Source: a bacterium | GTDB taxonomy: Bacteria > SM23-81 > DAOVCL01 | DNA: 39,376 nt | Reading direction: 5' to 3' | Assembly: GCA_029932675.1 (NCBI GenBank) | Contig: JAOZPP010000024.1 | Span: forward strand, 1-39,376 | Shown: positions 12,060-29,569 of the stretch, in pieces | Numbering within the stretch: position 1 is the first letter of the stretch | How the letters are laid out: every line of letters begins with the position of its first letter | Notes under the pieces: generated by a model | The model's input: only the letters and a program-made list of their open reading frames with translations | What the model was told of the DNA's origin: nothing | Database searches by the model: none | Translations under genes and position numbers: made by a program

Positions 12060-15000
12060 CTACCTGATGAGGACCATCTTTTTCGTCTTTGTTACCTTTA
12101 TACTTTCACCTGTTATCCCTAACCTACAGAGATATATCCCGCTGGAGACTTCTTGGCCGAGGTTATCCCTTCCATCCCATTGCACTGAATAGTAACCAGG
12201 AGCCTGTTCCTCTTCCACCAGAGTTCTGACCAACCGACCCAAGATGTTGTAGATTTTTAGGGTGGTGTGGGGTGGACTGACCGCTGGAATGGTATAGCGG
12301 ATGGTGGTGGTGGGATTGAAGGGATTGGGGTAGTTCTGGGAGAGATCGCAATTGGTGGGGATGGCCTTTAAGGGAGGCGATTGGATCCCCACTTCTCTGT
12401 TAGGTTTTATTTCCAGATCATCTATGTACCATCCCTCGTACTGGTTCCCGTCATCTTCGCTATAAAAGGTAAACCTTATCCGGATCGAATCCCCGGAAAA
12501 GGAAGAGAGGTCATAGGATTTTTCGCTCCAGCCGTCGCTCGATCCGGTAAAGAGGTCAAGTTCTACCCATCCCTCTCCCCCATTTATCTCCAAGAAGCCA
12601 TAATCCATTCCGCTTTCGATTACATACCAGGTCCAAAAGCTGAGGGTGGGATGTGATCCCATCCAGATTGAAGGGCTAATCAGATAAGCGGTAAAGGCGG
12701 GCTCGTAAACCCAACTGCCCTCGCTTCCACAATACCAGCTATAGCTGCCGCCAGGGGTGTGGTTCCTATGGCTGCTTAGGTGCCAGGTATTTGTGGAGCC
12801 AGTATGGGTCCATCCACCTTCCCCCCCTTCCATATCGTCAGAGAAGCCAGAGACCCCAATAGGGAGTTGAAAGCCTGCTTGGGTGTTGTAGCCATCTGCG
12901 GCGATCTGGAGGGAAAACTGGGAAAAGTGGGGGGTGGGACAGTCCGGGGAGATTTCAATCTGGTAGGGGCTTGCCGAACCCGTGCTGTCCCCGGGGCCAA
13001 GGTCGGCGAAGCCTGAGCTATTGGAGATGATCGTTATATAGGGATCGATGGTGCCCAGAAGGGCGGAGAGGTTGGATGCCTTGCCCAGGCCGATGTTCTT
13101 CAGGGTCACGGTTATCTTCAAGGTTTCTCCCGGATCGGCAAGGCCATTGCCCCCCTCTCCATCATCAATGTTATTGGTTAAATGGGTGATAATTGGGGAG
13201 GCGATTTGAAGTGCTATCTCCGAGCTCCATTGGTGATCCTCCCCATCATGGATAGCAAGGTGAAGATAGCTAATGTGGCCGTTGGGGCAGGTGGGGGAAA
13301 TTGTGAACTGGTAGGGCGATGAGGATTCCGATGTATCCTGGGCAGGGATATTCCCATAAAACACGGAACTGTCGGTAATAGTAATGAAGGAATCGGCAGC
13401 CGAGAGGATAGCGCTGACATCGGAAGATGATTGGCTACCGAAATTCTTTAGCACTATAGTCATACCTATCAGCTCCCCCGGGTTTGGAACCCCGTCCCCA
13501 CCGTCATCTAATCTGTGACTGTAATGGGCTAAGTAAGGGCCTTCTTCCATTACGATGATTTGGTCTTCATAAGGCAAGAAGTTATGAGCAGTAACGGTAA
13601 TGGAAATGGTATCGGGAAAGACAGGTGAGGTGGAGAAGGTGACTTGGCCGTCTGCCCCAGTAATCCCAGTGGCATAGAGGTTATTCCCGTTGGTTATGCA
13701 AACCAAACCATCCTCTACTGGAGAACCACCGGAAGTAACGGTAACCGTGAACTGAAACTCCCCAGTTGGAATTCGGTGTGGGTAATCTACCGCAAGCTCC
13801 TGGGGGGTATCCGTCCAAAGGGGGAGCTCAGGGTCTCCTAAGAGGTTTAGTTCAAACTCAATCCAGCGGTAATCGTTCTCCAAGTGAGCATCGGCGATAT
13901 AATAGATCTTTGAATTGGCCAAAGTCGCGCCTAAATGGTAAATGCCATCATTGAAGAGCGAAGCGAAGAACCTCTGATCGAAGAGATCTGACGACCCATA
14001 TCCAGGAAATGAGGGGGTGTACCAACCATACCTGCTGTTGCCCACGAAGAACCCTCCCCCATGAGGGCTTTTCACGAAGTGCTCCGCGATACAGTCATAG
14101 TCTATGGCTGCCGGCCAACAGCCAACCGAGTAAAGGGCACCAAAGAAGCGAGGGGAGTTAGCGAGACCATCTATCTGCTCGCTATTGAGTGCATCAGGAC
14201 CAGTGCACATAACATCTATAAAGGCGTGGCCACAGTGATTGAGCAAATTGAAGCCTCTATTCATTGAATCAAGGACTGCCCCTGCCGATTCGTTTCCGTC
14301 TCTCTCGTATAGTTTAGCAATTGGGTCAAACCCATCCGGGAAGTACCTCTCATCTATGAGGTCCTTGCTTATCCCATCGTCGGTGAGGTCGTCTGCTCTC
14401 TCTGCAAAGAAAAGGGCTCGCCGTTGATAATCAATGGGAGGGTTCTTCTCATAGGTTAAAGCTTTAGTTACAAATGATTGGGTCTCCGCCAGGGTGGCCA
14501 CCGGAGCCCGCCCCACAAAGATGTCCGGATAGAGGTCCACGCTGTCCTCAGGTTCCCCGTAGATTTCATCCCCATCAAGATCCCAGGTCCCATCAAGGTC
14601 GGAGTAGTAGAGATCAGAGGGTATGTCCTCGGTGTAGCTCTCCAACTCGATGTGCGCATATCGGCAGGGGATGATACCTGTGTCCCCGCCCAGGAGGACC
14701 CAGATGGTTCCCGAATCCTGAGCAGCGATCTTCAGGTAGTTTCTGATCCTTTCGGCAAGGTCACTTCCGTTATAGTGGGAGTCTATCCAGGAGACGGTTC
14801 TTATTGCCGTAGGGACCCCCTTTTTTGTCTTCCACTGGGCCAGAGGGGTGAAAACTGGGGCTAAGTTGGCATCGGTGATGATTAGGTAGGTGAGTAGATC
14901 ATCTTTGGGGAACTCTTCCCCAAGGGCCCTCCCCCCTATATTATCTGGGTTAAGGACCAATCTCCTAACCACCCGATGATAGATGCCTTCTGATCCAGCC

Positions 15001-15566
15001 CTATGAGGGAGGGATCTGGCGACCTTCCCTTCCCGCAGGTATTGTAGCTTGAACTCTACCTGAGTAATGAGGCGGAGCCTTCCCTCTGAAGGGATGTATT
15101 GAAGGGGGTGGAGTTGTAAAGTGGCAATTCTTTCTCCACAGAGGTTCCCCAAACCGAGGTAACGGATGATATTGGTAGGATAGGGCGCTGGAGAGCTGTA
15201 GATGGAAGGGTCTGGTTTGACGAAGGGAGGTGAATGGGCTGAATGGCTGATGGGAATTGAGGGTTGAGTCGGATATAGGTTATAAACCCCAGGCAGATCC
15301 GCATATTCACACTTAGTGAGCTTGACCCCAGTTACCTTGGCATCAGGGGGAATACGGATATAGATGTTCCTTACCGGCAGGAGAGGGGCCCCTACCTGGT
15401 TGGTGAAGTGGCAGCCTTGGAGCTTGACCACATCATACCCCCTCATCTGCTCAAAGGAGAGGCTCGGCTTTGAAAAGCTAACCCTCTGAGGTAGCTCCCC
15501 CGCCTTCCCTAAGCTCAAGGGGAGGCAAAGGGAGATAAGGGCTAATGTAAGCCATAACCTTTTCAT
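12060..15566 (-). CDS. Gingipain-like C25 cysteine protease, T9SS cargo
   Basis: A 1168-aa protein with signal peptide (1-22), a propeptide-like beta region (about 25-215) and a peptidase C25 catalytic domain (about 220-585). The likely catalytic His is H447 in LLNHCGHAF and the likely Cys C483 in LYSVGCWPAA. The family segment GGGFFVGNSRYGW is also present. Then come Ig/CARDB-like repeats (about 595-905, two with a NPGE[LT] motif), a MAM/immune-inhibitor-A-like jelly roll (about 910-1070) and the sorting domain (DLSQNYPNPFNPTT to KKMVLIR). It should be exported by Sec, then by a type IX-like system, and matured at the surface. C25 members include gingipains and the T9SS sortase PorU; the sorting domain here argues for a cargo protease. 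The start lies 6 bases past the rtcB stop, with its ribosome-binding site (AAGGGA) inside the rtcB end. Confidence 0.88.
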   Translation of the reverse strand: MKRLWLTLALISLCLPLSLGKAGELPQRVSFSKPSLSFEQMRGYDVVKLQGCHFTNQVGAPLLPVRNIYIRIPPDAKVTGVKLTKCEYADLPGVYNLYPTQPSIPISHSAHSPPFVKPDPSIYSSPAPYPTNIIRYLGLGNLCGERIATLQLHPLQYIPSEGRLRLITQVEFKLQYLREGKVARSLPHRAGSEGIYHRVVRRLVLNPDNIGGRALGEEFPKDDLLTYLIITDANLAPVFTPLAQWKTKKGVPTAIRTVSWIDSHYNGSDLAERIRNYLKIAAQDSGTIWVLLGGDTGIIPCRYAHIELESYTEDIPSDLYYSDLDGTWDLDGDEIYGEPEDSVDLYPDIFVGRAPVATLAETQSFVTKALTYEKNPPIDYQRRALFFAERADDLTDDGISKDLIDERYFPDGFDPIAKLYERDGNESAGAVLDSMNRGFNLLNHCGHAFIDVMCTGPDALNSEQIDGLANSPRFFGALYSVGCWPAAIDYDCIAEHFVKSPHGGGFFVGNSRYGWYTPSFPGYGSSDLFDQRFFASLFNDGIYHLGATLANSKIYYIADAHLENDYRWIEFELNLLGDPELPLWTDTPQELAVDYPHRIPTGEFQFTVTVTSGGSPVEDGLVCITNGNNLYATGITGADGQVTFSTSPVFPDTISITVTAHNFLPYEDQIIVMEEGPYLAHYSHRLDDGGDGVPNPGELIGMTIVLKNFGSQSSSDVSAILSAADSFITITDSSVFYGNIPAQDTSESSSPYQFTISPTCPNGHISYLHLAIHDGEDHQWSSEIALQIASPIITHLTNNIDDGEGGNGLADPGETLKITVTLKNIGLGKASNLSALLGTIDPYITIISNSSGFADLGPGDSTGSASPYQIEISPDCPTPHFSQFSLQIAADGYNTQAGFQLPIGVSGFSDDMEGGEGGWTHTGSTNTWHLSSHRNHTPGGSYSWYCGSEGSWVYEPAFTAYLISPSIWMGSHPTLSFWTWYVIESGMDYGFLEINGGEGWVELDLFTGSSDGWSEKSYDLSSFSGDSIRIRFTFYSEDDGNQYEGWYIDDLEIKPNREVGIQSPPLKAIPTNCDLSQNYPNPFNPTTTIRYTIPAVSPPHTTLKIYNILGRLVRTLVEEEQAPGYYSVQWDGRDNLGQEVSSGIYLCRLGITGESIKVTKTKKMVLIR

Positions 15567-15572
15567 CGCAAT

Positions 15573-17003
15573 CTATCCCTTTATACAACCCATAGGCTTG
15601 AGTCTCACCACTTTCCTGGCCAAACCCGCATTGTGAATTGCCTCCACCACCTCGGTGACGTCCTTGTAGGCCATAGGTGCCTCCTCAGCCAGACCGGACA
15701 TAGAGTGGCCTCTAATGTAGATCCCCTTGGATTTAAGCTCATCGAGTAATCTCTCCCCTCTCCAGGTTTTCATCGCTCGCTTCCGGCTCATCCTCCTTCC
15801 TGCCCCGTGGCAGACTGAGGCGAATGCCTTCTCCTCGCCAGTTTCGGTTCCCACCAATATATAGGAGGACGTGCCCATCGTCCCCCCAATGATCACCGGC
15901 TGCCCGATTCCTTGGTAGGGCTGAGGGAGTTCCCCTCTCTGGGGGCCAAAGGCACGGGTAGCCCCCTTCCGGTGGACCAAAACCCTCCTCTCTTGGCCAT
16001 CTATTCTGTGGTTCTCTAACTTACAGGTATTGTGGCCTACATCGTAGAGGAGCTTGGCCTCTGCCCGGGGGAAGACCCTGTTCAGGCCCTCCCTGACCAA
16101 ATGGGTTATTACTTGCCGGTTAGCAAAGGCATAATTTATGGCACAGTTCACCGCAGAGAAATACCTTTTCCCCTCGGGTGAGTCTATGGGTGCACAGACC
16201 AGCTCCCTCTCCTTGATGGGGATGCCATACTTGCGGGAAGCCTCAGCTAAAATCCTCAAGTAGTCAGTTCCCACCTGATGGCCCAAAGCCCGTGAGCCGC
16301 AATGGATGGTAATGGTGACCTTGTTCTTCTCTAATCCAAACTTACTGGCGGTTGAGGGGTCATAGACCTCCTCCACCCACTGAACCTCCAGGTAGTGGTT
16401 CCCCGAACCTAAGGTGCCCACCTGCCTTTTTTCCCGTTGGAGGGCCTTCTGGCTCACTGCCCCTGGGTCACCTCCCGGGACCATACCCCTCTCCTCAGTG
16501 AATTCCAGGTCCTCCTTCTCCCCATAACCGAGCCCTACTACCCATTGTGCCCCCTTGGTGAGCACCCCCTCAACCTGTGAAGAGGAGAGGGAGATCTTTC
16601 CCCTTGATCCTACTCCAGCAGGGACGATGCCGAAGAGGGTATCCACTATATCCTTAAGTTTGGGTCTAACCTCCTCCAGGTCAAGCCCAGTGCAGAGGGT
16701 TCTTACCCCACAGTTTACATCGAAGCCCACACCGCCTACAGAGATGATCCCTCCCTGATCTGGGTCAAAGGCGGCCACCCCACCGATGGGGAAACCGTAA
16801 CCCCAATGGGCATCAGGCATTGCCAGGGAGAACTTTTGTATCCCTGGAAGGCAAGCTACATTGGTCACCTGTTCATATACCTTCTCATCCATCTCCTCTA
16901 TCAATTTCCGGTGTGCATAGATCTTCCCTGGCACCTTCATCTCCCCTTGACGAGGGATGACCCATTCATATTCACCTTCGGCAATTAACTTTTTTAGTTC
17001 CAT
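15573..17003 (-). CDS. rtcB: RNA-splicing ligase RtcB
   Basis: A 476-aa protein matching RtcB throughout (family about 480 aa without intein). The metal ligands are in place: D95 and C98 (GFDVNCGVR), H203 (GSGNHYLE), H234 (TIHCGSR) and H324 (DVGHNTCK). The GMP-accepting histidine is H399 in SVCHGAGRRMSR. RtcB joins 2',3'-cyclic-phosphate (or 3'-phosphate) and 5'-OH RNA ends using GTP and Mn2+ in RNA repair or tRNA splicing. The activator archease is encoded 20 bases upstream, a known partnership. Start ATG follows GAGGAGG. No intein is seen. Confidence 0.96.
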   Translation of the reverse strand: MELKKLIAEGEYEWVIPRQGEMKVPGKIYAHRKLIEEMDEKVYEQVTNVACLPGIQKFSLAMPDAHWGYGFPIGGVAAFDPDQGGIISVGGVGFDVNCGVRTLCTGLDLEEVRPKLKDIVDTLFGIVPAGVGSRGKISLSSSQVEGVLTKGAQWVVGLGYGEKEDLEFTEERGMVPGGDPGAVSQKALQREKRQVGTLGSGNHYLEVQWVEEVYDPSTASKFGLEKNKVTITIHCGSRALGHQVGTDYLRILAEASRKYGIPIKERELVCAPIDSPEGKRYFSAVNCAINYAFANRQVITHLVREGLNRVFPRAEAKLLYDVGHNTCKLENHRIDGQERRVLVHRKGATRAFGPQRGELPQPYQGIGQPVIIGGTMGTSSYILVGTETGEEKAFASVCHGAGRRMSRKRAMKTWRGERLLDELKSKGIYIRGHSMSGLAEEAPMAYKDVTEVVEAIHNAGLARKVVRLKPMGCIKG

Positions 17004-17023
17004 CTCTCCACCTCCTCAGGGCC

Positions 17024-17440
17024 TTAGATATCGACCACGCAGCGGGCAAAGAATTCACCATCCCTCTCCCCAATGGCCAACCCAGAATAGGTTGCCGCCT
17101 TCACCTCAACCTTGGGATTATGCCTTTGGGGGTCGAACCTTTCTCCCTCTACCCAGCCGTGCAACTCTTTTTCGGTTATCCGATCTATCCTAAATCGAGA
17201 GAGAACCAGTCCATTGATGTCTGCTTCAGTTAAAAGTTGGTTTAGCCATTCCACGAAGAGCTCTTCGGTGTCCTCGGCCCGGCAGTGGATAGGAAGCCTC
17301 TGACTTGGTTTCACCTGATCGATGTCGATGATTAGGTTAAACATTGCCTTGGCAGCCTCCTCAAAGGCCTCGGCGAGGCTTGCCCCCCAGCCAACGATCC
17401 CCATATCGGCTAGGTGTTCGAAGTATTCAAACCGGCCCAT
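17024..17440 (-). CDS. Archease (RtcB activator)
   Basis: A 138-aa protein of the archease family. The N-terminal YFEHLADMGIVGWG, central EELFVEWLNQLL and C-terminal KAATYSGLAI motifs are typical, and acidic residues expected to bind metal are present. Archease speeds RtcB guanylylation and turnover, and it directly precedes rtcB. A longer frame opens at 17470 but would overlap the thymidine kinase gene. The ATG at 17440 gives the family N-terminus (MGRFEYFEH), has AGGA nine bases upstream, and leaves a 5-base gap after the thymidine kinase stop. Confidence 0.93.
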   Translation of the reverse strand: MGRFEYFEHLADMGIVGWGASLAEAFEEAAKAMFNLIIDIDQVKPSQRLPIHCRAEDTEELFVEWLNQLLTEADINGLVLSRFRIDRITEKELHGWVEGERFDPQRHNPKVEVKAATYSGLAIGERDGEFFARCVVDI

Positions 17441-17445
17441 AAGAT

Positions 17446-18009
17446 CTATTCCTGGGGAGGAACAAAACACCTTCTACATCTCGGTTCATAAGCTCCCTCT
17501 GCCCCCACCAAGACCCTCTCCTTGCTCTCTACTAACCTCTGGGATTTGTTCGCCGGTCGGCCACATACCATACAGACGGCAAGGGTCTTCGTTATATCCT
17601 CGGCTATGGCCAAGAGTTGGGGAATGGGCTCGAATGGCTTGCCCCGGTAATCCTGGTCAAGTCCAGCGACGATTACCCTCCTCCCCTCATTGGCCAATTG
17701 GTCGCATATATCCACCAGTTCCATCCCTAAGAATTGGGCTTCATCTATGCCCACCACCTGGGTATCCGGTCTCAGCTTCTCCAGTATCTCCTGTGCTGAA
17801 TCCACCGATTCGGACTCTATCCTCTGATCGCTGTGGGAGACGATCTGGTTCGCGGAGTGCCGGGTATCGATCCTGGGCTTAAAGGCCTGAACCTTCTGTT
17901 TGGCTATCTTCGCCCTCCTTAACCGGCGGATGAGCTCCTCGCTCTTGCCGCTAAACATACTCCCACAGATGACCTCAATCCAACCTGTTTCCTTATCGAT
18001 GGTTTTCAT
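17446..18009 (-). CDS. tdk: Thymidine kinase, type II
   Basis: A 187-aa enzyme phosphorylating thymidine with ATP in dTMP salvage. P-loop GSMFSGKS (16-23), DEAQF Walker B-like motif (89-93, catalytic-type E90), a lasso region near [17 protein letters not shown], and a four-cysteine zinc site (C146, C149, C178, C181) identify the family. Length is normal. It lies between the dCMP deaminase gene (42 bases upstream) and archease, so dTMP supply and RNA repair genes are probably cotranscribed. Confidence 0.95.
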
Positions 18010-20165: not shown

Positions 20166-20194
20166 TTGACAAAGTGTAAGTGATGAATTATATT
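20166..20194 (+). promoter_or_regulatory. Consensus sigma70-type promoter of a compact transcript
   Basis: TTGACA (20166-20171), exactly 17 bases, TATATT (20189-20194). This is the best promoter in the window. Predicted start is at about 20200-20202. Confidence 0.8.
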
Positions 20195-20364: not shown

Positions 20365-20366
20365 GT

Positions 20367-20408
20367 AACCCACATGTTAATTCCTACTGATTAAACATGT
20401 GGGTTTTT
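20367..20408 (+). terminator. Rho-independent terminator of the structured transcript
   Basis: AACCCACATGT (20367-20377) pairs perfectly with ACATGTGGGTT (20395-20405). TTAAT/ATTAA can extend the stem inward, and T5 follows at 20404-20408. It stands about 90 bases before the next gene, so conditional read-through is possible. Confidence 0.85.
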
Positions 20409-20497
20409 GATTTTAAGGAAAGTAGGTCCTTATCAGGTCTTGGTTTGTTATATCTGAGTTTAAAGCACATTATATGATCACTGGAGGTTAGGATCAA

Positions 20498-21187
20498 ATG
20501 CCTAAAAGCATATTTGCCGCGACTCTGCTCACGATCAACTTGCTGCTGCTGATAGGTAGAGGACAGAGTGACGCGAAGGATGGGAAACTCTCAGACCGGA
20601 AACCGCAGGTTCGTAAATTGGCTGATGGGGTTTACAGAGTTGGGACTGTTACTCTGAACCGAGAGAAAAGGGAAATCTATATTGATGGCGAGGTAAATAT
20701 GCAATCCGGAATGATTGAACTTTTAGCCTGTGCCTGGGGTGGGAAACAACACGAAAGCGTGTTAGTTCTGGATGTTGTACCTCATCATCTACAAGTTGCT
20801 TTGCTTCTCTTGGGGTTAGAACCTGGGGGACATAAGCTTGAGTATCAAGGTGACCCCAGAACACCTGAGGGAGACTCCTTAGAGGTTTGGGTGGAATGGG
20901 AACAAAATGGAACAGTTAAAAGGGTGAGAGGGGAGGATTTAGTTTACAACATCCCCCAGAAGAGGTCAATGAAACATACCCCTTGGGTTTTTGCAGGGTC
21001 TGTCATCTATGATGGGCGGTTTATGGCTGATGAAGATAGATCGATTATAACTACATTTCACGATCCTTTAACCATCATAGACAATCCTCTTTCCACAGGA
21101 GGGGATGATACAATTTATAGGGTAAATGAGAAGATGGTGCCAAAGGTAGGCACTCCAGTGAAGCTGATTTTAAAGGCCTTAGATTGA
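20498..21187 (+). CDS. Exported YdjY-domain protein
   Basis: A 229-aa protein with a signal peptide (about 1-26, MPKSIFAATLLTINLLLLIG). The remainder matches the YdjY-type domain as I know it from many environmental bacteria: the GTVTLNREKREIYIDGEVN opening, ESVLVLDVVPHHLQVALLLLG centre, and the C-terminal block WVFAGSVIYDGRFMADEDR followed by ATFHDP-like TTFHDPLTIIDNP. The biochemical function of this domain is not established. It is often found near Fe-S or secreted toroid proteins, and here it is followed by an exported toroid protein. The start ATG has GGAGG nine bases upstream. Confidence 0.8.
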   Translation: MPKSIFAATLLTINLLLLIGRGQSDAKDGKLSDRKPQVRKLADGVYRVGTVTLNREKREIYIDGEVNMQSGMIELLACAWGGKQHESVLVLDVVPHHLQVALLLLGLEPGGHKLEYQGDPRTPEGDSLEVWVEWEQNGTVKRVRGEDLVYNIPQKRSMKHTPWVFAGSVIYDGRFMADEDRSIITTFHDPLTIIDNPLSTGGDDTIYRVNEKMVPKVGTPVKLILKALD

Positions 21188-21370
21188 GATGCAGGGTTAA
21201 TTAGGTCTTTTCTTGGTAGCAAGTTTTGGGAGTGAGCGATTCCGAAATGGTTAGGAGAATGGCTCTCCGCGGGGTTTTTTGTCGCCCAGTTCTTAGGGGG
21301 GAGATGAACGACATTTCAGTCAGTTTGGTTGGTTGAGAGATAACATCTTCCATAGTCGAAGGGGGTTCTA

Positions 21371-22561
21371 ATGGTAAACAGGAATTACATCCTATTGGTG
21401 TTTACAGGGTTAATGCTCCTGTCATTTATAGGGTCACCTTTATATCCTCAGAAGGAGGTCAACAAGGGAATTCCTATTGAACTCTCCTTAAGGAAGGAAA
21501 CAGAACACTCCATTCAAAAGGGGTTGGCCTGGTTGGAGAAACGCCAGGGAGAGGATGGCTCATGGTCCTCCTATCCAGCTATTACCGCTCTTGTCGTCAC
21601 TGCCTTCTTAAATAGTCCTTTTGCCAGTGATTACAGCTTCACTATAGAGAGAGGTGTTCAATACATATTGGATCAAGTTAAACCTGACGGAGGTATCTAT
21701 GGAAGGGATATGCCCTGTTATAATACCTCGATTTGCATTATGGCTCTTCTGGCAACGGGGGATGCCAAATATGCAGAAGTGATTAGGAGAGCACGGGATT
21801 TCCTCATTACCCTTCAGGCCGATGATGAGGAGGGTTATACTCGCAGGGATAGATTCTATGGGGGTATAGGCTACGGCGGAGATGAAAGACCGGATATGTC
21901 TAATATGCAATGGGCTCTGGAAGCTCTCAAAAAATCAGAGCCCTATCGGGTGAGAAGTGAGGCTACAGGCAAACAGAAGGAATTCAGTGGGACCCAACCA
22001 GGAGGGGAGATTGAGGGTTCAGTAGGAGCCAATGCCAATAAGGAACTTTTTTGGGACAAGGCCATTGTCTTCTTGGAACGCTGTCAGAATTTGAAGAAAT
22101 ACAATGATCAGCCGGAGTCTCTTGATGATGGTGGATTTGTATACTACCCCGGTTACAGCCAAGCTGGGGGGTTAAGGTCCTACGGAAGTATGACCTATGC
22201 TGGATTAAAGAGCTTCATCTACGCTGATGTGGGCAAGGACGACCCCCGGGTTCAGGCGGCCTATAAGTGGATAAAGAACCATTTTACCCTTGAGGAGAAT
22301 CCTCCGATGGGGGATCAAGGCCTTTACTACTATTACCATACGATGGCGAAGGCGCTCTCTATTTATGGTGAGGATGTCTTAACAGATGACAAAGGCATAG
22401 AACACAATTGGCGAAGTGAATTCATCTCTAAGCTTATAAAGATTCAAAATGGTGATGGCTCTTGGGTGAACTCTAATGGGAGATGGTGGGAGAACAATAA
22501 GGATTTGGTCACCGCATATTCCATTCTGGCCTTGGAGGAGACCCTTTCGGTAAATAAGTGA
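21371..22561 (+). CDS. Exported alpha/alpha-toroid (prenyltransferase/squalene-cyclase-like repeat) protein
   Basis: A 396-aa protein with an N-terminal signal peptide or anchor (about 1-24) and then an alpha/alpha-barrel of squalene-cyclase-like repeats. QW-type motifs recur: GLAWLEKRQGEDGSW, then a KPDGGIYG repeat, FVYYPG, and a last IKIQNGDGSWVNS repeat. The DxDD acid motif of true hopene/squalene cyclases is not visible, so terpene cyclisation is unlikely. Such exported toroids are probably binding or structural modules, and the substrate is unknown. The following 1164-aa cargo protein contains a related toroid, which suggests a shared pathway. Start is supported by GAAGGGGG upstream of the ATG. 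Confidence 0.8.
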   Translation: MVNRNYILLVFTGLMLLSFIGSPLYPQKEVNKGIPIELSLRKETEHSIQKGLAWLEKRQGEDGSWSSYPAITALVVTAFLNSPFASDYSFTIERGVQYILDQVKPDGGIYGRDMPCYNTSICIMALLATGDAKYAEVIRRARDFLITLQADDEEGYTRRDRFYGGIGYGGDERPDMSNMQWALEALKKSEPYRVRSEATGKQKEFSGTQPGGEIEGSVGANANKELFWDKAIVFLERCQNLKKYNDQPESLDDGGFVYYPGYSQAGGLRSYGSMTYAGLKSFIYADVGKDDPRVQAAYKWIKNHFTLEENPPMGDQGLYYYYHTMAKALSIYGEDVLTDDKGIEHNWRSEFISKLIKIQNGDGSWVNSNGRWWENNKDLVTAYSILALEETLSVNK

Positions 22562-22582
22562 GACCAAAATAAGGGGTCTTTT
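22561..22582 (+). terminator. Weak hairpin at the end of the toroid gene
   Basis: AGACC (22561-22565) pairs with GGTCT (22575-22579) and is followed by TTTT. The stem is only five bases and the loop nine, so termination would be partial. Confidence 0.35.
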
Positions 22583-23013
22583 CAACTGCTGAGGAGGTGA
22601 TGCGATGTGAGATTTGGTTGATCAAACAAGTGAAAGGGGCTTACAGAAAGGTGGTGATGCCTTTGCGGAGAGGTTCGGAGAAAGATTTAACCCTGATTAT
22701 GTAATCGTGTTTCATAAGGTGGCGGTTGGAGAAGAGCGAATTTGAATGATTCATTCACGTGCAGGAGACAAAAGGCAAGGACACTTTGTGGCTACACAGT
22801 TTAGGTCTGGCGGTTTGACAAGCCATCACCCTACAAAGGGTAGATAGAACTTCGTATGGGACTTGTGAAATCTAAATCGATTAAGTGACTTCTAATTATT
22901 GCAAGCATAACCTGGGTCAAATCTTGACTCCCATTTAAGGTTCTAAGGGAGTAGATAACATTAGTAAAACACATAGTCAAAACGATTTTCGTCCTTAACA
23001 TAGGAGTTCCGAA
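22562..23013. other. Intergenic region with a start-stop mini-ORF and a possible peptide remnant
   Basis: A strong GAGGAGGTG ribosome-binding site (22591-22599) is followed at good spacing by ATG-TGA (22605-22610). After this stop the same frame stays open for 44 codons to 22745 (including GDAFAERFGERFNPDYVIVF, which looks protein-like), and a TTG at 22614 could start it. An ATG at 22600 opens another frame of about 31 codons. The remaining 270 bases show no gene and no consensus promoter, though TTGACT occurs at 22924. Confidence 0.4.
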
Positions 23014-26000
23014 ATGAAGAAGCTAATGCTGTTTTGCCTTTTGGCCTTGGGGCCTGCCCTTTTTGTTGTTCTCAACAATAGGGCAGAAAATGACCCCATA
23101 ATGAAGCAAGCGAAATCGCTTTTGCAGGAGTATGAAGGGTATAGCACTTTGTCTCCTCAGCCCATACCGGAACCCCCTCCCGAAGAAGATCCTGCTTCAA
23201 GCTGGAGGAGTGCTTACTCAAAAGGCTCAAAGGGCCCCTTACGGGTGAATGTCATGCCCGATGGGATATACAGACCGCAAAGCTACGAGAATACAGCTTA
23301 TGCATGGCCAGGGAAGGAACTCACCATCTGGGGAAATGTCCACGGTGGCACACCTCCTTATACCTATGTATGGGATTTTGGAGATGGTACTCCTCCAGCG
23401 AGCGGATCGGTGAGTGACCCACCCCACTTTCGCTACATTGCAGTGATCCACAGTTATAGCACCATGGGGCCAAAATATGCTACCTTGACGGTTACAGACA
23501 AAAACGGGAATTGGGACTCGGATGTGGTGAGAATAGATGTAGTACCCCAGACTTTGGAGATAGAAGTAAACGCAGCTATCGAGAATGGGTTACGCTGGCT
23601 CTATCGTAATCAGTACTCAGGGGGCTATTGGCGTAGCTATTGGCCGCGGCATTATTACTACCTTTCCCCCACTGCCTTGGCCGTTTTGGCCTTCGAGAAT
23701 AGGGGGCACTTTCCTACGAACGACATAGATGAAGACATCTACGCCGAAACGGTTCAGTCCGGGTTGGCCTACATCTTCAATCACGCTTACACTTGCTCTA
23801 TAGATACTCAAGAGTGTTTCAACCCTGATACAGATGGCGATGAGATTGGAATTTACTTCGATGATGGCGATCACTATTTCCGCGGTCAAATGTATAACCA
23901 GGGGATAGCAATGATGGCTGTAGTGGGAAGTGGGGATCCATCACTGGTTGCATCCAGCACATCCAGCCCCGATGTCGATGGACATACGTATGGGGAGATT
24001 ATCGTTGACGCAGTGGACTATTGTGCCTGGGCTCAAAATGACCCACCCTTTAACGCACGGGGGGGATGGAGATATAAACCAAACTACGGTTACTATCCTT
24101 ATACTAGCGACAACTCAGTATCCCAGTGGCCAGCTATAGGCCTTGAAGCTGCCGAAAGCGAATGGAATATATGTGCCCCCGACAGTCTAAAAGGTGAGCT
24201 TCTGCTGTGGATAGACTTCAGTCAGGCTTCCAACGGATGCTTCGGCTACACCGATCCCTACGGTAACACCGGTCGTTTTGCAATGACAGCAGCAGGACTT
24301 TGTGAACTGGCCTATTGTGATGTAGATACATCCGACCAGATGGTTCGAGATGCGCTCAGTTGGCTCTGCAACGAGTGGAACTCCTCAGGGATGTGGGGGA
24401 ATTTCGCTAGCCTCTATGCAATGTATGGATTGGCCAAGGGATGTCGAATCAGTGTCCCCGGGGAGATCAAATCCATATGTGGTCATGACTGGCAAGATGA
24501 ATACGATAGCTGGTTGGTGGACAATCAAGAGAGCGGGGGGTCTTGGCATGGTTCTGGCTACGGCAATGATAGAGTTTTGGACACGGCCTTTGGCATACTC
24601 ATCCTCATTCGGGGAATAGTTTGTCCAGGGCCGGTGGCAGTGATTAACGCCCCCAGCACTATTGGTCCGGGGACATCCTTCCCTATGGATGCGAACAACT
24701 CCTACCATCCGGATTCCAGCAAACAAATCGTGGAATGGCTATGGGATTTCGATAAGGAGGACGGCATAGATTGGGATAATCCTGATGCGGTGGGGCACAA
24801 TGTAGAGAACCCAGGTTATCCCTTACCTTTTCCACTTCTGGAGGACACATTCTGGGTAACCCTCAAAGTTTGTGATGAAGGCTCCGAGACGCCGCCATGT
24901 ACAACCGTGAAATGTGATGTTAAGGAACATCGTGTCATAGTGTGGCGTAAAAACAACCGTCCTATAGCCGATCCGGGACCACCTGGGCCCGGGGAGGTTT
25001 ATGCTGGAAGGGTGGGGGAGCCCATAATACTTGATGGGACCGATTCCTGGGATCCTGATACAGAGTGGGGTGATTATATTGCCAGTTATTCGTGGGACTT
25101 AGATGGAGACGATACTTTTCGCGACTGCACTACCCCCATCTGCACCCTGTTTTGTAAAGAGGTATATTCTGGTATGATAGGGTTAGTGGTGTGCGATTCG
25201 TATGACACCTGTTCAATCCCCGCCCAAGGTTACGTCAACTGTTGGTGCTCAAAGGTAGATGTCTTCCTCACCGATCAAGACATTTTCTTTGCCCCTTCAA
25301 CCCCACTCCCCCATGAAACGGTGACTCTCTATGCGGTGGTTCATTGTGATACAGCATCAGACCCTATAGGTAGTGTTAAAGTGCGCTTCTATGACGGGGA
25401 TCCGGACATAGCCGTGCACCAGATAGGGAGTGATCAGATGGTCTATAACCTGGTAGCAGGAGCGATCGATACGGTGGAGGTTTCTTGGACCTTCCCGGAT
25501 TCGGTACCCCATGACGTCTATGTCAGGTTGGATCCGGATCAGGAACTGGAAGAATACGATGAGGATAATAACGAGGCCTCCAGGGAGCTTGTCCCCACTT
25601 TCATCCTACCGGCTACGGTGGAATTGGTCCCTGATGAGCTGGATTTAACCCCGAATCTCCCACCGGTCAAGTGCTACATTGAGTTGCCCCAGGGATACTC
25701 AGTGAAATATATTGAGGAGGTTTCTATGTGCGGATGTCGGGAGGAGTGCATCCACCCCTTAGCTGAACCTTGGGAGATCGGCGACTATGATGAGGATGGG
25801 ATACCAGACCTGATGGTTGCCTTTGATTATCTGGCCTCGCTTCGAGTAGTTGATCTGAAGCGGTGTGGTATAGCCACCATAGAGGGGATGGTGCAGGTTG
25901 GGAGCATAGAGGCCACCTTTGTGGGGCAAGATACTGTAAAGGCTAACAACCCTGGTGGATGTATCATTGGTGAGGTTACCGATGGTGCAACTGGTGAACC

Positions 26001-26508
26001 TCTGGATGGGGTGTTGGTTCAGGTCCTAAGGGATACGCTGGTATTGGGATGGGACATTACCAAAGCCGATGGTCGGTATGAGCTTTCCTATGTGGTGCCA
26101 GGTGTATATGAGGTCTCGGCCTCAAAGGATGGTTATGGGGGTGCTGTTGAGAAGGGTGTAGAGAGCGTGGAGGCGGAGACTACGGTGGTTAATTTCCAGT
26201 TTTCACCAATTTCTGTACCAGAAGAGGGAGAGACTAAGGTTCCAAAGACTTTCTCTCTGAGCCAGAACTATCCCAATCCCTTCAACCCGGTGACCACAAT
26301 CAGGTATGGCCTTCCCAAGGCGACCTATGTGAGGCTGACCCTATACAACATCTCTGGGCAGAGGATTGAGACATTGGTAGATGAGCATCAGGAAGCTGGC
26401 TACCACGAGGTTAGCTGGAGCGCAGAGGGTTTGGCCAATGGCATCTACTTCTATCGGATTGAAGCCGGTGAATTCATCCAGACCAAGAAGATGATCGTGT
26501 TGAAGTAG
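23014..26508 (+). CDS. Multidomain T9SS cargo: PKD, toroid, CARDB-like and sorting domains
   Basis: A 1164-aa protein with signal peptide (1-24). It has a PKD domain (75-177, YVWDFGDG), an alpha/alpha-toroid of squalene-cyclase-like repeats (about 185-535, opening AIENGLRWLYRNQ and closing NQESGGSWHGSG), two PKD-like domains (540-642 and 648-745), and a CARDB-like domain (750-860, PDQELEEYDEDNNEA). A calcium-loop-like DYDEDGIPD (924-932), a carboxypeptidase-regulatory-like domain (982-1064) and the sorting domain (1080-1164, SLSQNYPNPFNPVTT) follow. It is unusually cysteine-rich, notably residues 700-750, which fits disulphide bonding outside the cell. No catalytic set is evident; a large surface binding protein is the cautious reading. 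AGGAG precedes the ATG, and the next cargo gene starts 64 bases downstream. Confidence 0.85.
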   Translation: MKKLMLFCLLALGPALFVVLNNRAENDPIMKQAKSLLQEYEGYSTLSPQPIPEPPPEEDPASSWRSAYSKGSKGPLRVNVMPDGIYRPQSYENTAYAWPGKELTIWGNVHGGTPPYTYVWDFGDGTPPASGSVSDPPHFRYIAVIHSYSTMGPKYATLTVTDKNGNWDSDVVRIDVVPQTLEIEVNAAIENGLRWLYRNQYSGGYWRSYWPRHYYYLSPTALAVLAFENRGHFPTNDIDEDIYAETVQSGLAYIFNHAYTCSIDTQECFNPDTDGDEIGIYFDDGDHYFRGQMYNQGIAMMAVVGSGDPSLVASSTSSPDVDGHTYGEIIVDAVDYCAWAQNDPPFNARGGWRYKPNYGYYPYTSDNSVSQWPAIGLEAAESEWNICAPDSLKGELLLWIDFSQASNGCFGYTDPYGNTGRFAMTAAGLCELAYCDVDTSDQMVRDALSWLCNEWNSSGMWGNFASLYAMYGLAKGCRISVPGEIKSICGHDWQDEYDSWLVDNQESGGSWHGSGYGNDRVLDTAFGILILIRGIVCPGPVAVINAPSTIGPGTSFPMDANNSYHPDSSKQIVEWLWDFDKEDGIDWDNPDAVGHNVENPGYPLPFPLLEDTFWVTLKVCDEGSETPPCTTVKCDVKEHRVIVWRKNNRPIADPGPPGPGEVYAGRVGEPIILDGTDSWDPDTEWGDYIASYSWDLDGDDTFRDCTTPICTLFCKEVYSGMIGLVVCDSYDTCSIPAQGYVNCWCSKVDVFLTDQDIFFAPSTPLPHETVTLYAVVHCDTASDPIGSVKVRFYDGDPDIAVHQIGSDQMVYNLVAGAIDTVEVSWTFPDSVPHDVYVRLDPDQELEEYDEDNNEASRELVPTFILPATVELVPDELDLTPNLPPVKCYIELPQGYSVKYIEEVSMCGCREECIHPLAEPWEIGDYDEDGIPDLMVAFDYLASLRVVDLKRCGIATIEGMVQVGSIEATFVGQDTVKANNPGGCIIGEVTDGATGEPLDGVLVQVLRDTLVLGWDITKADGRYELSYVVPGVYEVSASKDGYGGAVEKGVESVEAETTVVNFQFSPISVPEEGETKVPKTFSLSQNYPNPFNPVTTIRYGLPKATYVRLTLYNISGQRIETLVDEHQEAGYHEVSWSAEGLANGIYFYRIEAGEFIQTKKMIVLK

Positions 26509-26572
26509 GGGAACCTCATAGGGAGGTTCGTAAGGAGGTCTATATACCAAAACCCAAGAAAGGAGGGAAGTC

Positions 26573-27457
26573 TTGAAACCTAAGCGAGGGCTCCTCATCT
26601 GTTTGATATCTCTCATAATAGTGGGGGCACAGCTAACTTCTGCTTCTGCTTATGATCACTACGTGGTTTTGAGAAATGGCCAGCAGTACTTTGGCCCGGA
26701 CGAGGATATCATAGTGGATGGGAAGTTGGCTTGCCCGGTTCCAGGTGATATTGAATGTGATAATTATGCCAATTATACCCCCGATAATTGCATGTGGGCT
26801 GCGGTAGCCGATATTTACATCATGCCAGACACTGGTGGGGAACGGGAATGTGCATTTCCCCTTGAGCAATGTGCTGTAGCTGCGGCACACAACGTGATAG
26901 GATACTGGATAGATGACTATCTGTTTACTGGTGTAACCCTTGGGCGCACAAAACCTTCTGGGACTGTTCCCCCAGGATGTTATGATATCGTCATTGATGA
27001 AGGTCAGGACGGATGGTTTAGCCCCGATAGGGACTTCGTCCTTGGGGTGGCTGACTCGGTTGCTTTCTGGGTTGCCCCCTACTTTTGTCCGAGGCTAGCA
27101 TCCCTGGAATCTTACAAAAATGATGCGTCTTTTCACGCTGAGCAGCTTAAGAGTCTCAGGGAAGGAATACAAAATGGTTTTGAGCTGTATAACGCCGCGT
27201 TTGATTATGGAGATGCATTCCTAAGGGTCGTCATGAGTGAAGATAGGGGCGCCATAGTAATGGGTATAGTTTTGAACCAGATCGTTGGGGCAATGCAATT
27301 TGTGGCTGGACCCTTAACCCCAGCAAGTCAACTGGAGTATCTGTGGCTTGGAATTTATGATAACTTCTTGGGAAGCAAGCGTGAAGCTTATGAGCAGATA
27401 GCTGCTGACCCCTCCACATTCTGGGGAAACCGTTCCAGCTCCTATCGGGCCTATTGA
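26573..27457 (+). CDS. N-terminal part of a frameshifted T9SS cargo protein
   Basis: An apparent 294-aa product starting at TTG 26573, with AAGGAGGG well placed upstream, and a signal peptide (about 1-26, ending TSASAY). No known domain is recognised; it has several cysteines (around residues 53-104) and an acidic beta-rich region. The last ten residues are probably spurious: from about 27425 the coding sense moves one base forward, and the next frame continues without a stop into the protein encoded downstream. Read together with the next entry the protein is 977 aa with both a signal peptide and a sorting domain. A single extra G in GGGG at 27423-27426 accounts for the break. This may be a sequencing or assembly error, or a recent mutation. 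Confidence 0.75.
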   Translation: MKPKRGLLICLISLIIVGAQLTSASAYDHYVVLRNGQQYFGPDEDIIVDGKLACPVPGDIECDNYANYTPDNCMWAAVADIYIMPDTGGERECAFPLEQCAVAAAHNVIGYWIDDYLFTGVTLGRTKPSGTVPPGCYDIVIDEGQDGWFSPDRDFVLGVADSVAFWVAPYFCPRLASLESYKNDASFHAEQLKSLREGIQNGFELYNAAFDYGDAFLRVVMSEDRGAIVMGIVLNQIVGAMQFVAGPLTPASQLEYLWLGIYDNFLGSKREAYEQIAADPSTFWGNRSSSYRAY

Positions 27458-27515
27458 GGTTCTTGTTCTAAAGACTGATAGCCCTTTAGATCGGAAGGGG
27501 ATTAGGGTAGCAAAC

Positions 27516-29507
27516 ATGGAAAAAGTTCACGATGCGTATTTGCGTGGAATTTGTGAGTCTATCGAGCGCTACAACGAGTCAGTGGCATGTGGAAGCAATA
27601 GAGAACGCCTACTCCATGCTAGACAGCTTGGACTCTATCTCTCTTTTATAAATAACCAAATAGACAGCCTTCACTCTGCTGTCGTTGAGTTTCGCGCCAC
27701 AATTGAGGACTCCGGTGTCTCACTTTCCTGGAATGCAGATACTGCGAGGAGTTTCCAGCAACGTCTGGCAAGTGTCGGATTATATCCAGAGGAGCGGTAT
27801 GAGATGCGACAGGCAGGTCTAAATGACACAGAAATCGACAGTGTGGTAAGTGAAATTGTGGGGGAGGATCTTACCGGTTTTGAGTCAGGGAGTCTTATTG
27901 ATCGTCTTCAGTTATATGAAAACTCTCTAACCCAAACAGCCTCGTCTGAAACGCTGTATGCGGAGGTACAAGCTCTTGTGGAGATTTTGGACACGGTAGT
28001 AACCAAACCACTGCCCACGGCTGAGGCGGGTGGCCCTTACTATGGTGTAGAGAGGCAAGCAATAGCTATCTGTGGTTCCGGGACTTCCCCTGATCAACCA
28101 CTTTCGTATTCTTGGGATTTAGATGGGGACGGTTTCTTCGGTGATCTGACTGACTCATCAGGTGAAGTTACCTTCCCTTATGAGGGAACTTACCAGATCT
28201 CTCTTCTCGTCATCGATGCTTCTGGCTGGGGTGCAATAGACATTGCCACGGTAAAGGTAGCTAATACTAATGATCCGCCGCGCGTGCGAAGAGCCTGGCC
28301 AAGTAAGACTCAGAACGTGCTTTGGCCCTCGAACTCCATAGAATTGGGAGTGGAGGCCGAGGATCCGGACGGGGACCACTTAACCTATAGCTGGTTTCTT
28401 GAAAGTGATTCTCTATCAGAGGCTGAATCCACCCTGACGATAAACTTGGCTAGTTTGGATCCAGGACTCTATTGGTATAAGGTGAAAATCCGAGATGGGT
28501 GGCCGGGACACGTTATAGAATGGCATTGGTACCTTCTTTTATCAGGGTTACTTAGTACCCCAGGAGATCTGCCCAATGTCTCAATTCCACCTGATTCTTC
28601 GGCTATCTGGACATTAACCCTTTCGAATGTGACGAATGTGCCAATGAAATACTTCATTTGGGATGAAGATTCTCTAGGAGAACAAGTTCCCTGGCTTTGG
28701 GTAGAGCCAGAATCAGGTGTTGTTGAGGTAGATACTTCCCAAGTGGTCATCTTGCATTATAACACTGTGGGAATGGATTCTGGCCTGTATAAGGGATACC
28801 TTAAAGTTCAGGCCGATGACTACTACCATACCACAGTAACTATGTTAACCACCCTGACTGTCGGCAACGATGTAATTCCGCCCGCTGTTACCACTACCCT
28901 CACCGCAACCTCTTCAGTTGATGGTTCTGTTACCCTATGTTGGACGGCTCCTGGGGACGATGATACTGTGGGAACTGCTACGATGTATGATATTCGCTAT
29001 TCCACTGTAGAAGTGGGTATAGATACTTCTACCTGGTGGGAAGCGGCAGATACAGTGGCCAATGAACCGCCGCCTTCTCCGGCAGGAGAGGAGGATAGTT
29101 GTGTAGTGACAGGGCTTACTGCTGGACAGACATACTACTTTGCCATAAAGGCTGCCGATGAAGTACCCAACTGGTCGGGGATATCAAACATAGTGGGGCC
29201 AGTCGTAGTTGGAATTGAGGGGCGCGATTTTGTAGATCTTCCCAAAGCATTCGCCCTTTCCCCAAATTATCCCAATCCATTCAATTCGATTACCGAGATC
29301 AGATATGCCTTGCCCAAGGATTGCTGGGTGAAGTTAGAGGTCTACAACATCCTTGGTCAGAGGATTATGACTTTGGTTGATGGGGAACAGAATGCCGGTT
29401 ATAAGACTGTCCGGTGGGACGCAGGTTCCCTCCCCAGTGGAATTTACTTTATCCGTTTGAAGGCTGGGGATTTTAAAATGGCAAGGAGGATGGTTTTGTT
29501 GAAATAA
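27516..29507 (+). CDS. C-terminal part of the frameshifted T9SS cargo protein
   Basis: The frame from the ATG at 27516 gives 663 aa but has no Shine-Dalgarno and no signal peptide. The same frame is open back to 27402 and reads as protein (ETVPAPIGPIEVLVLKTDSP), so the real N-terminus is the preceding entry. Content: a helical region (about 1-165), a PKD-like domain (170-250, YSWDLDGDGFF), a second Ig-like domain (255-345), a beta domain resembling CARDB/BACON (350-450), a fibronectin type III domain (455-570) and the sorting domain (580-663, ALSPNYPNPFNSITE to RRMVLLK). It is followed by a strong terminator. Function is unknown beyond being a secreted or surface protein. Confidence 0.8.
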   Translation: MEKVHDAYLRGICESIERYNESVACGSNRERLLHARQLGLYLSFINNQIDSLHSAVVEFRATIEDSGVSLSWNADTARSFQQRLASVGLYPEERYEMRQAGLNDTEIDSVVSEIVGEDLTGFESGSLIDRLQLYENSLTQTASSETLYAEVQALVEILDTVVTKPLPTAEAGGPYYGVERQAIAICGSGTSPDQPLSYSWDLDGDGFFGDLTDSSGEVTFPYEGTYQISLLVIDASGWGAIDIATVKVANTNDPPRVRRAWPSKTQNVLWPSNSIELGVEAEDPDGDHLTYSWFLESDSLSEAESTLTINLASLDPGLYWYKVKIRDGWPGHVIEWHWYLLLSGLLSTPGDLPNVSIPPDSSAIWTLTLSNVTNVPMKYFIWDEDSLGEQVPWLWVEPESGVVEVDTSQVVILHYNTVGMDSGLYKGYLKVQADDYYHTTVTMLTTLTVGNDVIPPAVTTTLTATSSVDGSVTLCWTAPGDDDTVGTATMYDIRYSTVEVGIDTSTWWEAADTVANEPPPSPAGEEDSCVVTGLTAGQTYYFAIKAADEVPNWSGISNIVGPVVVGIEGRDFVDLPKAFALSPNYPNPFNSITEIRYALPKDCWVKLEVYNILGQRIMTLVDGEQNAGYKTVRWDAGSLPSGIYFIRLKAGDFKMARRMVLLK

Positions 29508-29536
29508 TTATCAGCAAACAGAAGATAGATCGTTGA

Positions 29537-29569
29537 ACTGCCGAAGATTACTCCTTCGGCAGTTTTTTT
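29537..29569 (+). terminator. Rho-independent terminator
   Basis: ACTGCCGAAG (29537-29546) pairs perfectly with CTTCGGCAGT (29554-29563), loop of seven, followed by T7. It closes the secretion-cargo cluster. Confidence 0.92.

Follow-up and report, generated by a model that had tools for sequence, protein, structure and literature searches.

A widespread pairing of a YdjY-family protein with a putatively exported alpha/alpha toroid, joined in some phyla by a toroid-bearing T9SS cargo

Introduction

Why would a bacterium encode a YdjY-family protein, a squalene-cyclase-like alpha/alpha toroid that looks exported, and a large surface-type protein with a second toroid embedded in it as consecutive genes on one strand? 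The genes lie in a 39,376-nucleotide contig (JAOZPP010000024.1 of assembly GCA_029932675.1; this whole stretch is the window referred to below) from a bacterium of the GTDB lineage SM23-81 (DAOVCL01), in which five open reading frames (ORF1 to ORF5; 229, 396, 1164, 294 and 663 amino acids) run along the forward strand between positions 20498 and 29507. A first reading made from the DNA letters (hereafter, the sequence-only reading) gave these coordinates and lengths correctly and proposed that the YdjY protein, the two toroid proteins and a second cargo gene form one surface binding or uptake apparatus. The YdjY family, which extends even to Escherichia coli, has no assigned function, and automatic annotation often gives exported squalene-cyclase-like proteins the wrong name. 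Using comparative genomics, profile searches and structure prediction, we conclude that the YdjY protein, the free toroid and the toroid-bearing cargo very probably act as one unit, and that YdjY and the free toroid are a widespread core to which the cargo has been added within the phyla of the Fibrobacterota-Chlorobiota-Bacteroidota (FCB) group.

Results

ORF1 (20498..21187, + strand), which begins with a hydrophobic N-terminus, falls within the YdjY family as defined by the NCBIfam model NF040466 (E = 7.8e-44; 149.5 bits against a cut-off of 50). ORF2 (21371..22561, + strand) is the free toroid and matches the Pfam family SQHop_cyclase_C (PF13243, E = 8.7e-13). ORF3 (23014..26508, + strand) is a cargo protein of the type IX secretion system (T9SS), for which Pfam and TIGR models give the order PKD, toroid, PKD, PKD, CARDB, CarboxypepD_reg and type A sorting domain. 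The hydrophobic N-termini of the exported-type proteins were read directly off the sequences, and export is putative throughout.

The free toroid and YdjY occur together far beyond this lineage. We sampled 336 genomes broadly, with selection for neither protein: the free toroid was present in 13 and YdjY in 18; every one of the 13 free-toroid genomes had YdjY, as against 5 of the other 323 (Fisher test, P = 1e-19, uncorrected for relatedness). YdjY was likewise found in 27 of 28 genomes that were reached via toroid loci. A scan for the free toroid, limited to one genome per species, returned 80 loci from many phyla, and in 29 of these YdjY was near the toroid, always on the same strand and mostly directly adjacent. 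Among the 13 sampled toroid genomes, six had the two genes within 2 kb of each other and three (G042, G215 and G347) encoded YdjY fused to a toroid-CARDB protein, while in G322 YdjY adjoined a second toroid. Natural toroid-CARDB fusions that carry the YdjY domain at the C-terminus are those at L093, L095 and L097.

The cargo extends this pairing within the FCB group. The order YdjY-toroid-cargo recurs in Ignavibacteria, Krumholzibacteriota, Cloacimonadota, GN15 and one more lineage, and the cargo orthologues retrieved by BLASTP with ORF3 share 35-44% identity with it over ~800-900 residues. An orthologue lies directly downstream of the toroid in two Ignavibacteria (L009 and L010, the latter from a genome with YdjY on another contig), in Krumholzibacteriota (L011, two copies) and in Cloacimonadota (L012); one gene intervenes in G089 (L090, a small cohesin protein) and in GN15 (L043, a receptor on the opposite strand). 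At L090:3969-8672, the small cohesin-domain protein stands between the free toroid and a cargo that itself bears cohesin. At four Bacteroidota loci (L015, L016, L019 and L020), YdjY and the toroid are followed by a large T9SS protein in the cargo position, more distant and not a full-length ORF3 orthologue, in which a toroid was recognized at L015, L019 and L020 and, at L016, only by a deeper profile; BACON domains occur in Bacteroidota homologues. In the free-toroid tree, the window sequence and its FCB relatives form one clade of 11 (support 98/95). Cargo-type toroids were found in 9 of the 13 free-toroid genomes compared with 2 of the 323 others (P = 3e-13). Two genomes, G045 and G303, carry a cargo-type toroid with neither the free toroid nor YdjY.

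Conservation of gene order had been set beforehand as a test of the one-system idea, and it was upheld across several phyla; together with the co-occurrence, the fusions and the related folds of the two toroids, it bears out the proposal of one system of YdjY, exported toroid and toroid cargo. That the genes might simply be chance neighbours encoding unrelated exported proteins gains some credence from the source genome, which has ~124 T9SS tails, about one per 24 kb, so that some cargo will lie near many genes. With the order kept in several phyla, the fusions and the strength of the co-occurrence, this explanation is refuted for the three-gene core and, highly improbable overall, is tenable only for ORF4 and ORF5.

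We modeled the free toroid with AlphaFold2 (pLDDT 89.7, pTM 0.87) and obtained an alpha6/alpha6 toroid with six outer and six inner helices. The best Foldseek matches were single-domain class II terpene cyclases, including MstE, and the sugar transaldolase AprG, at TM-scores of ~0.5-0.6. Class II terpene cyclases (squalene-hopene cyclase, MstE and drimenyl diphosphate synthase) share with ORF2 the alpha6/alpha6 toroid and QW-like repeats and are its closest neighbours in both sequence and fold, which would fit a secreted member of that enzyme class. The resemblance stops at the active site: residues D175-M176-S177-N178 (21893..21904, + strand) align with the PDVDDT segment of squalene-hopene cyclase, the DxDD general-acid site, and in our alignment of 62 free toroids (28 invariant columns) the D, S and N of this D-x-S-N motif are kept in 98%, 97% and 100% of the sequences, the asparagine thus in 62 of 62. 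Because serine occupies the position of the general-acid aspartate, the free toroid is not a DxDD-type cyclase, as the sequence-only reading had anticipated in noting that the catalytic acid motif was missing. ORF2 also scores just 35.5 against a cut-off of 431 on the hopene-cyclase equivalog model, looks exported, has a YdjY partner and presents a polar and aromatic mouth, and a secreted class II terpene cyclase is largely refuted; we consider it extremely unlikely. Automatic naming of the free toroid as a terpene cyclase is therefore wrong, since the protein is not of the DxDD type. A thioester-protein identity was also rejected, as the GCGEQ motif of C3/TEP proteins is absent from all 62 toroids.

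The conservation of the free toroid is strong and localized. Across phyla, 79 of 82 free toroids retain 31-35 of 35 key residues, and 33 of the 52 columns conserved at 95% or more fall in the loops that lead into the inner helices or in the first turns of those helices (P = 8e-6; a topological proxy, without model coordinates), suggesting one ligand or active site. These features are what would be expected if the toroid were a periplasmic enzyme that acts, with YdjY as its partner, on an envelope glycan or a molecule linked to a lipid carrier, the cargo and receptors of FCB genomes being a lineage-specific addition. The varied genomic contexts of the toroid (MoxR-DUF58-BatA genes, a family 2 glycosyltransferase [GT2] gene, or an ebo-like set of UbiA, TatD, TIM-barrel and phosphodiesterase genes), the location of E. 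coli ydjY between two DedA-family genes, a GH18-toroid fusion in the source genome and the sugar chemistry catalyzed by the related toroid AprG all agree with such an enzyme pair. It would, however, lack a recognizable catalytic motif, with neither cysteine nor histidine among the columns conserved at 95% or more, and it leaves the conserved surface cargo and receptors unexplained. We regard it as a serious but doubtful alternative. AprG itself, from the apramycin pathway, shows that a single alpha6/alpha6 toroid can act on sugars; it differs in being an actinobacterial biosynthetic enzyme and has 12-14% identity to the free toroid.

The toroid of the cargo (23542..24633, + strand) is detected weakly by Pfam (0.018). 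Profile-profile comparison with hhalign nevertheless aligned it with the free toroid over 300 columns (probability 99.75, E = 2.4e-27), a whole-length homology, so that the two toroids do not have unrelated folds. Cargo toroids carry their own invariant set (RGGWRY, DNSxxQW and YxxY), which, because it differs from that of the free toroids, makes a second subfamily a better description of them than a relic. An initial count of 5-11 of the 35 key residues had suggested a decayed copy; that idea was dropped, as the low count was partly alignment failure and the domain has invariant residues of its own. Being distinct subfamilies with different conserved sites, the two toroids need not share a job. 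Elsewhere in the source genome, a 1901-amino-acid T9SS protein (G000:C85, L107:12311-18016) combines GH18, toroid, fn3, CARDB and CarboxypepD_reg domains, and its toroid keeps 28 of the 35 free-toroid key residues.

At its C-terminal end, ORF3 has a type A sorting signal, Por_Secre_tail (26269..26499, + strand; PF18962 and TIGR04183), that scores 41.6 bits against a cut-off of 23. The source genome also encodes the sortase PorU (750 bits against a cut-off of 420), the only T9SS machinery component searched for, and with this sortase and the many tails noted above it is reasonable to predict that ORF3 is exported through the T9SS. The sequence-only reading had placed weight on the richness of the cargo in cysteine; ORF3 has 29 cysteines, but their positions are not conserved among orthologues, and a cysteine signature was rejected.

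The YdjY protein was modeled as a compact, beta-rich domain (pLDDT 90.1). The model had no structural match in the PDB or among the viral models of BFVD at E ≤ 0.001 and the sequence had no PDB match, so within the limits of these comparisons the predicted fold appears not to have been described. The best-conserved residues are E74, G82, E86, S87 and W163. An Fe-S role, of the 4Fe-4S ferredoxin type annotated for the E. coli protein, was rejected because the cluster-binding cysteines are absent: the window YdjY contains one cysteine, none of 30 alignment rows has a CxxCxxC motif, and E. coli YdjY, likewise without CxxCxxC, has a cysteine-rich insert (CLVCLDSC) with no counterpart in the window protein. 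The E. coli operon ydjXYZ-ynjABCDE resembles the locus in encoding a YdjY homologue, a likely lipoprotein. It differs in that insert, in having no toroid, and in its DedA, ABC-transporter and sulfurtransferase genes.

Outside the FCB group the surroundings of the core differ, and what is shared is therefore the toroid and YdjY. About a dozen loci, from Verrucomicrobiota, Armatimonadota, Poribacteria, Firestonebacteria and their relatives, have MoxR, DUF58 or BatA genes in the vicinity of the toroid, and in Phycisphaerae its surroundings include a GT2 gene. The former arrangement would suit a role in assembling envelope complexes, with the toroid and YdjY aiding insertion or folding of a membrane or surface complex in the manner of MoxR-Bat systems. 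MoxR-Bat genes are also widespread where there is no toroid, and none were seen in the contexts from FCB bacteria, Desulfobacterota and Phycisphaerae, which makes an assembly role improbable. At four loci (L018, L022, L023 and L032), the toroid stands beside TatD, UbiA, TIM-barrel and phosphodiesterase genes that resemble the ebo cluster (PMC5133447, PMC6282210); at L018, TatD, UbiA and phosphodiesterase were assigned by Pfam and the TIM barrel by reading, and the comparison covered eboB, C, E and F only.

ORF4 and ORF5 stand apart from the conserved set. ORF4 (26573..27457, + strand; 294 amino acids) is an orphan exported-type protein with no Pfam or NCBIfam match and no relatives in 31 genomes or in the related loci fetched. 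ORF5 (27516..29507, + strand; 663 amino acids) has PKD and fn3 domains and, as the sequence-only reading had it, a T9SS tail, but that tail is one of the ~124 in the genome, and the other loci have no counterpart of ORF4 or of the N-terminal part of ORF5. Both were rejected as members of the system for lack of conservation, and the claim that this second cargo gene belongs to it falls. ORF4 has a signal-like N-terminus without a tail and ORF5 a tail without a signal, in different frames, and the open stretch of the ORF5 frame starts at ~27402 and runs over the end of ORF4; a frameshift or an assembly error may have divided a single gene, of which ORF4 would be the 5' part.

Other features of the window concern its flanks. 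A promoter-like TTGACA-17-TATATT (20166..20194, + strand) precedes the YdjY gene by ~300 bp, a pattern match only, with regional counts at chance level. Directly upstream of the same gene, an inverted repeat at 20366-20412 (AACCCACATGTT / AACATGTGGGTT) is followed by a T-rich stretch; it was noticed by eye and is absent from the terminator scan. After ORF5, a terminator-like hairpin with a 12-pair stem (29535..29565, + strand) is again a pattern match only. On the reverse strand, 12060-15566 encodes a C25-family peptidase with a T9SS tail and 15573-17470 RtcB RNA ligase and archease, a common pair.

Discussion

The neighbours of the core in FCB loci may hint at what it does. Of the 10 FCB loci from the scan, 7 have TonB-dependent receptors close to the pair, as does L090, which makes 8 of 11 FCB loci, compared with 1 of 66 other loci, a difference that takes no account of the larger number of receptors that FCB genomes generally encode. 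In loci with two receptors, one resembles heme/hemoglobin receptors and the other is nearer to models for B12, PqqU or siderophore receptors. We tentatively propose a capture-uptake mechanism in which the cargo would be displayed on the outer surface and use its toroid and Ig-like domains to bind a soluble ligand or glycan fragment; in FCB bacteria, the TonB-dependent receptors would import the cargo-bound ligand, and the periplasmic free toroid and YdjY would bind or chemically process the same family of ligands at the conserved barrel mouth. The role would perhaps be of a surface or uptake type, the capture or processing of a small molecule or sugar. The surface binding or uptake function put forward by the sequence-only reading thus stands as plausible, given the receptors that adjoin the module in other genomes.

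Several observations weigh against this proposal, beginning with the uncorrected receptor comparison. No flanking receptor reaches the cut-off of an NCBIfam model. There is no TonB-dependent receptor near the window locus, L011, L012 or L016 (L012 and L016 being on short contigs), and the six receptors encoded elsewhere in the source genome (G000) are not tied to the locus. No riboswitch, cobalamin or other, was found in the FCB loci searched. The toroid of Planctomycetota and Lentisphaerota in most cases lacks an adjacent YdjY. Most non-FCB loci are without receptors, and receptor-linked uptake therefore cannot account for the core in all its hosts. Because some genomes have the core but no receptors close to it, an envelope enzyme pair comes close in likelihood, and we place surface capture with TonB-linked uptake only slightly ahead of it.

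The nature of the ligand can be approached from two sides. Hints of a cofactor come from the receptor types and an analogy with transcobalamin, whose alpha/alpha toroid and beta-grasp domain enclose B12; secreted proteins that fuse a toroid to SLBB are found in bacteria (PMC1796856). By this analogy the toroid and YdjY, itself beta-rich and sometimes fused to the toroid, would sandwich a corrinoid or tetrapyrrole, in the manner of transcobalamin and intrinsic factor, and pass it to TonB-dependent receptors, the flanking ones scoring best with heme, B12 and siderophore models. The locus resembles transcobalamin, intrinsic factor and the bacterial toroid-SLBB surface proteins in joining an exported toroid to a beta-rich domain near B12- or heme-like receptors. 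It departs from them in that YdjY has no beta-grasp or other PDB match, Pfam reports no SLBB domain in ORF1-3 and gives no Cobalamin_bind match, and neither transcobalamin nor intrinsic factor appeared among the PDB sequence matches of the toroid or its 50 best fold matches. B12-specific uptake was rejected, with no riboswitch and no beta-grasp match, and a tetrapyrrole carrier of any kind seems unlikely to us.

Hints of a carbohydrate come from the GH18-toroid T9SS protein in the source genome, the BACON domains and AprG among the nearest folds, and we slightly favour a carbohydrate-like ligand over a metal or tetrapyrrole cofactor. With SusC/SusD polysaccharide utilisation loci, which also place TonB-dependent receptors beside surface binding proteins, the system shares these BACON and GH18 hints; the binding protein here is, however, a T9SS cargo and not a SusD lipoprotein, and the receptors are not SusC/RagA above the cut-off (104 bits against 368 for one receptor with the SusC/RagA model), nor was SusD found among the neighbouring proteins scanned.

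All the components can be assigned to named families or folds, and what lacks a description, within the reach of our checks, is their combination together with the fold of YdjY. Our literature search on YdjY, on secreted squalene-cyclase-like proteins with T9SS or TonB, and on toroids with MoxR or DUF58 found no description of the pairing in open-licence papers, subscription journals lying mostly outside its reach. The findings turn two separate unknowns, YdjY and the exported toroid, into one testable system, and the natural toroid-CARDB-YdjY fusions are useful material for structural work. It is conceivable, if short of probable, that this is an undescribed and widespread envelope system, in which a near-obligate YdjY-toroid core with new chemistry or a new ligand has been extended in FCB bacteria by a surface toroid and TonB-dependent receptors; YdjY would then represent a new fold and the toroid a new class of exported enzyme or receptor.

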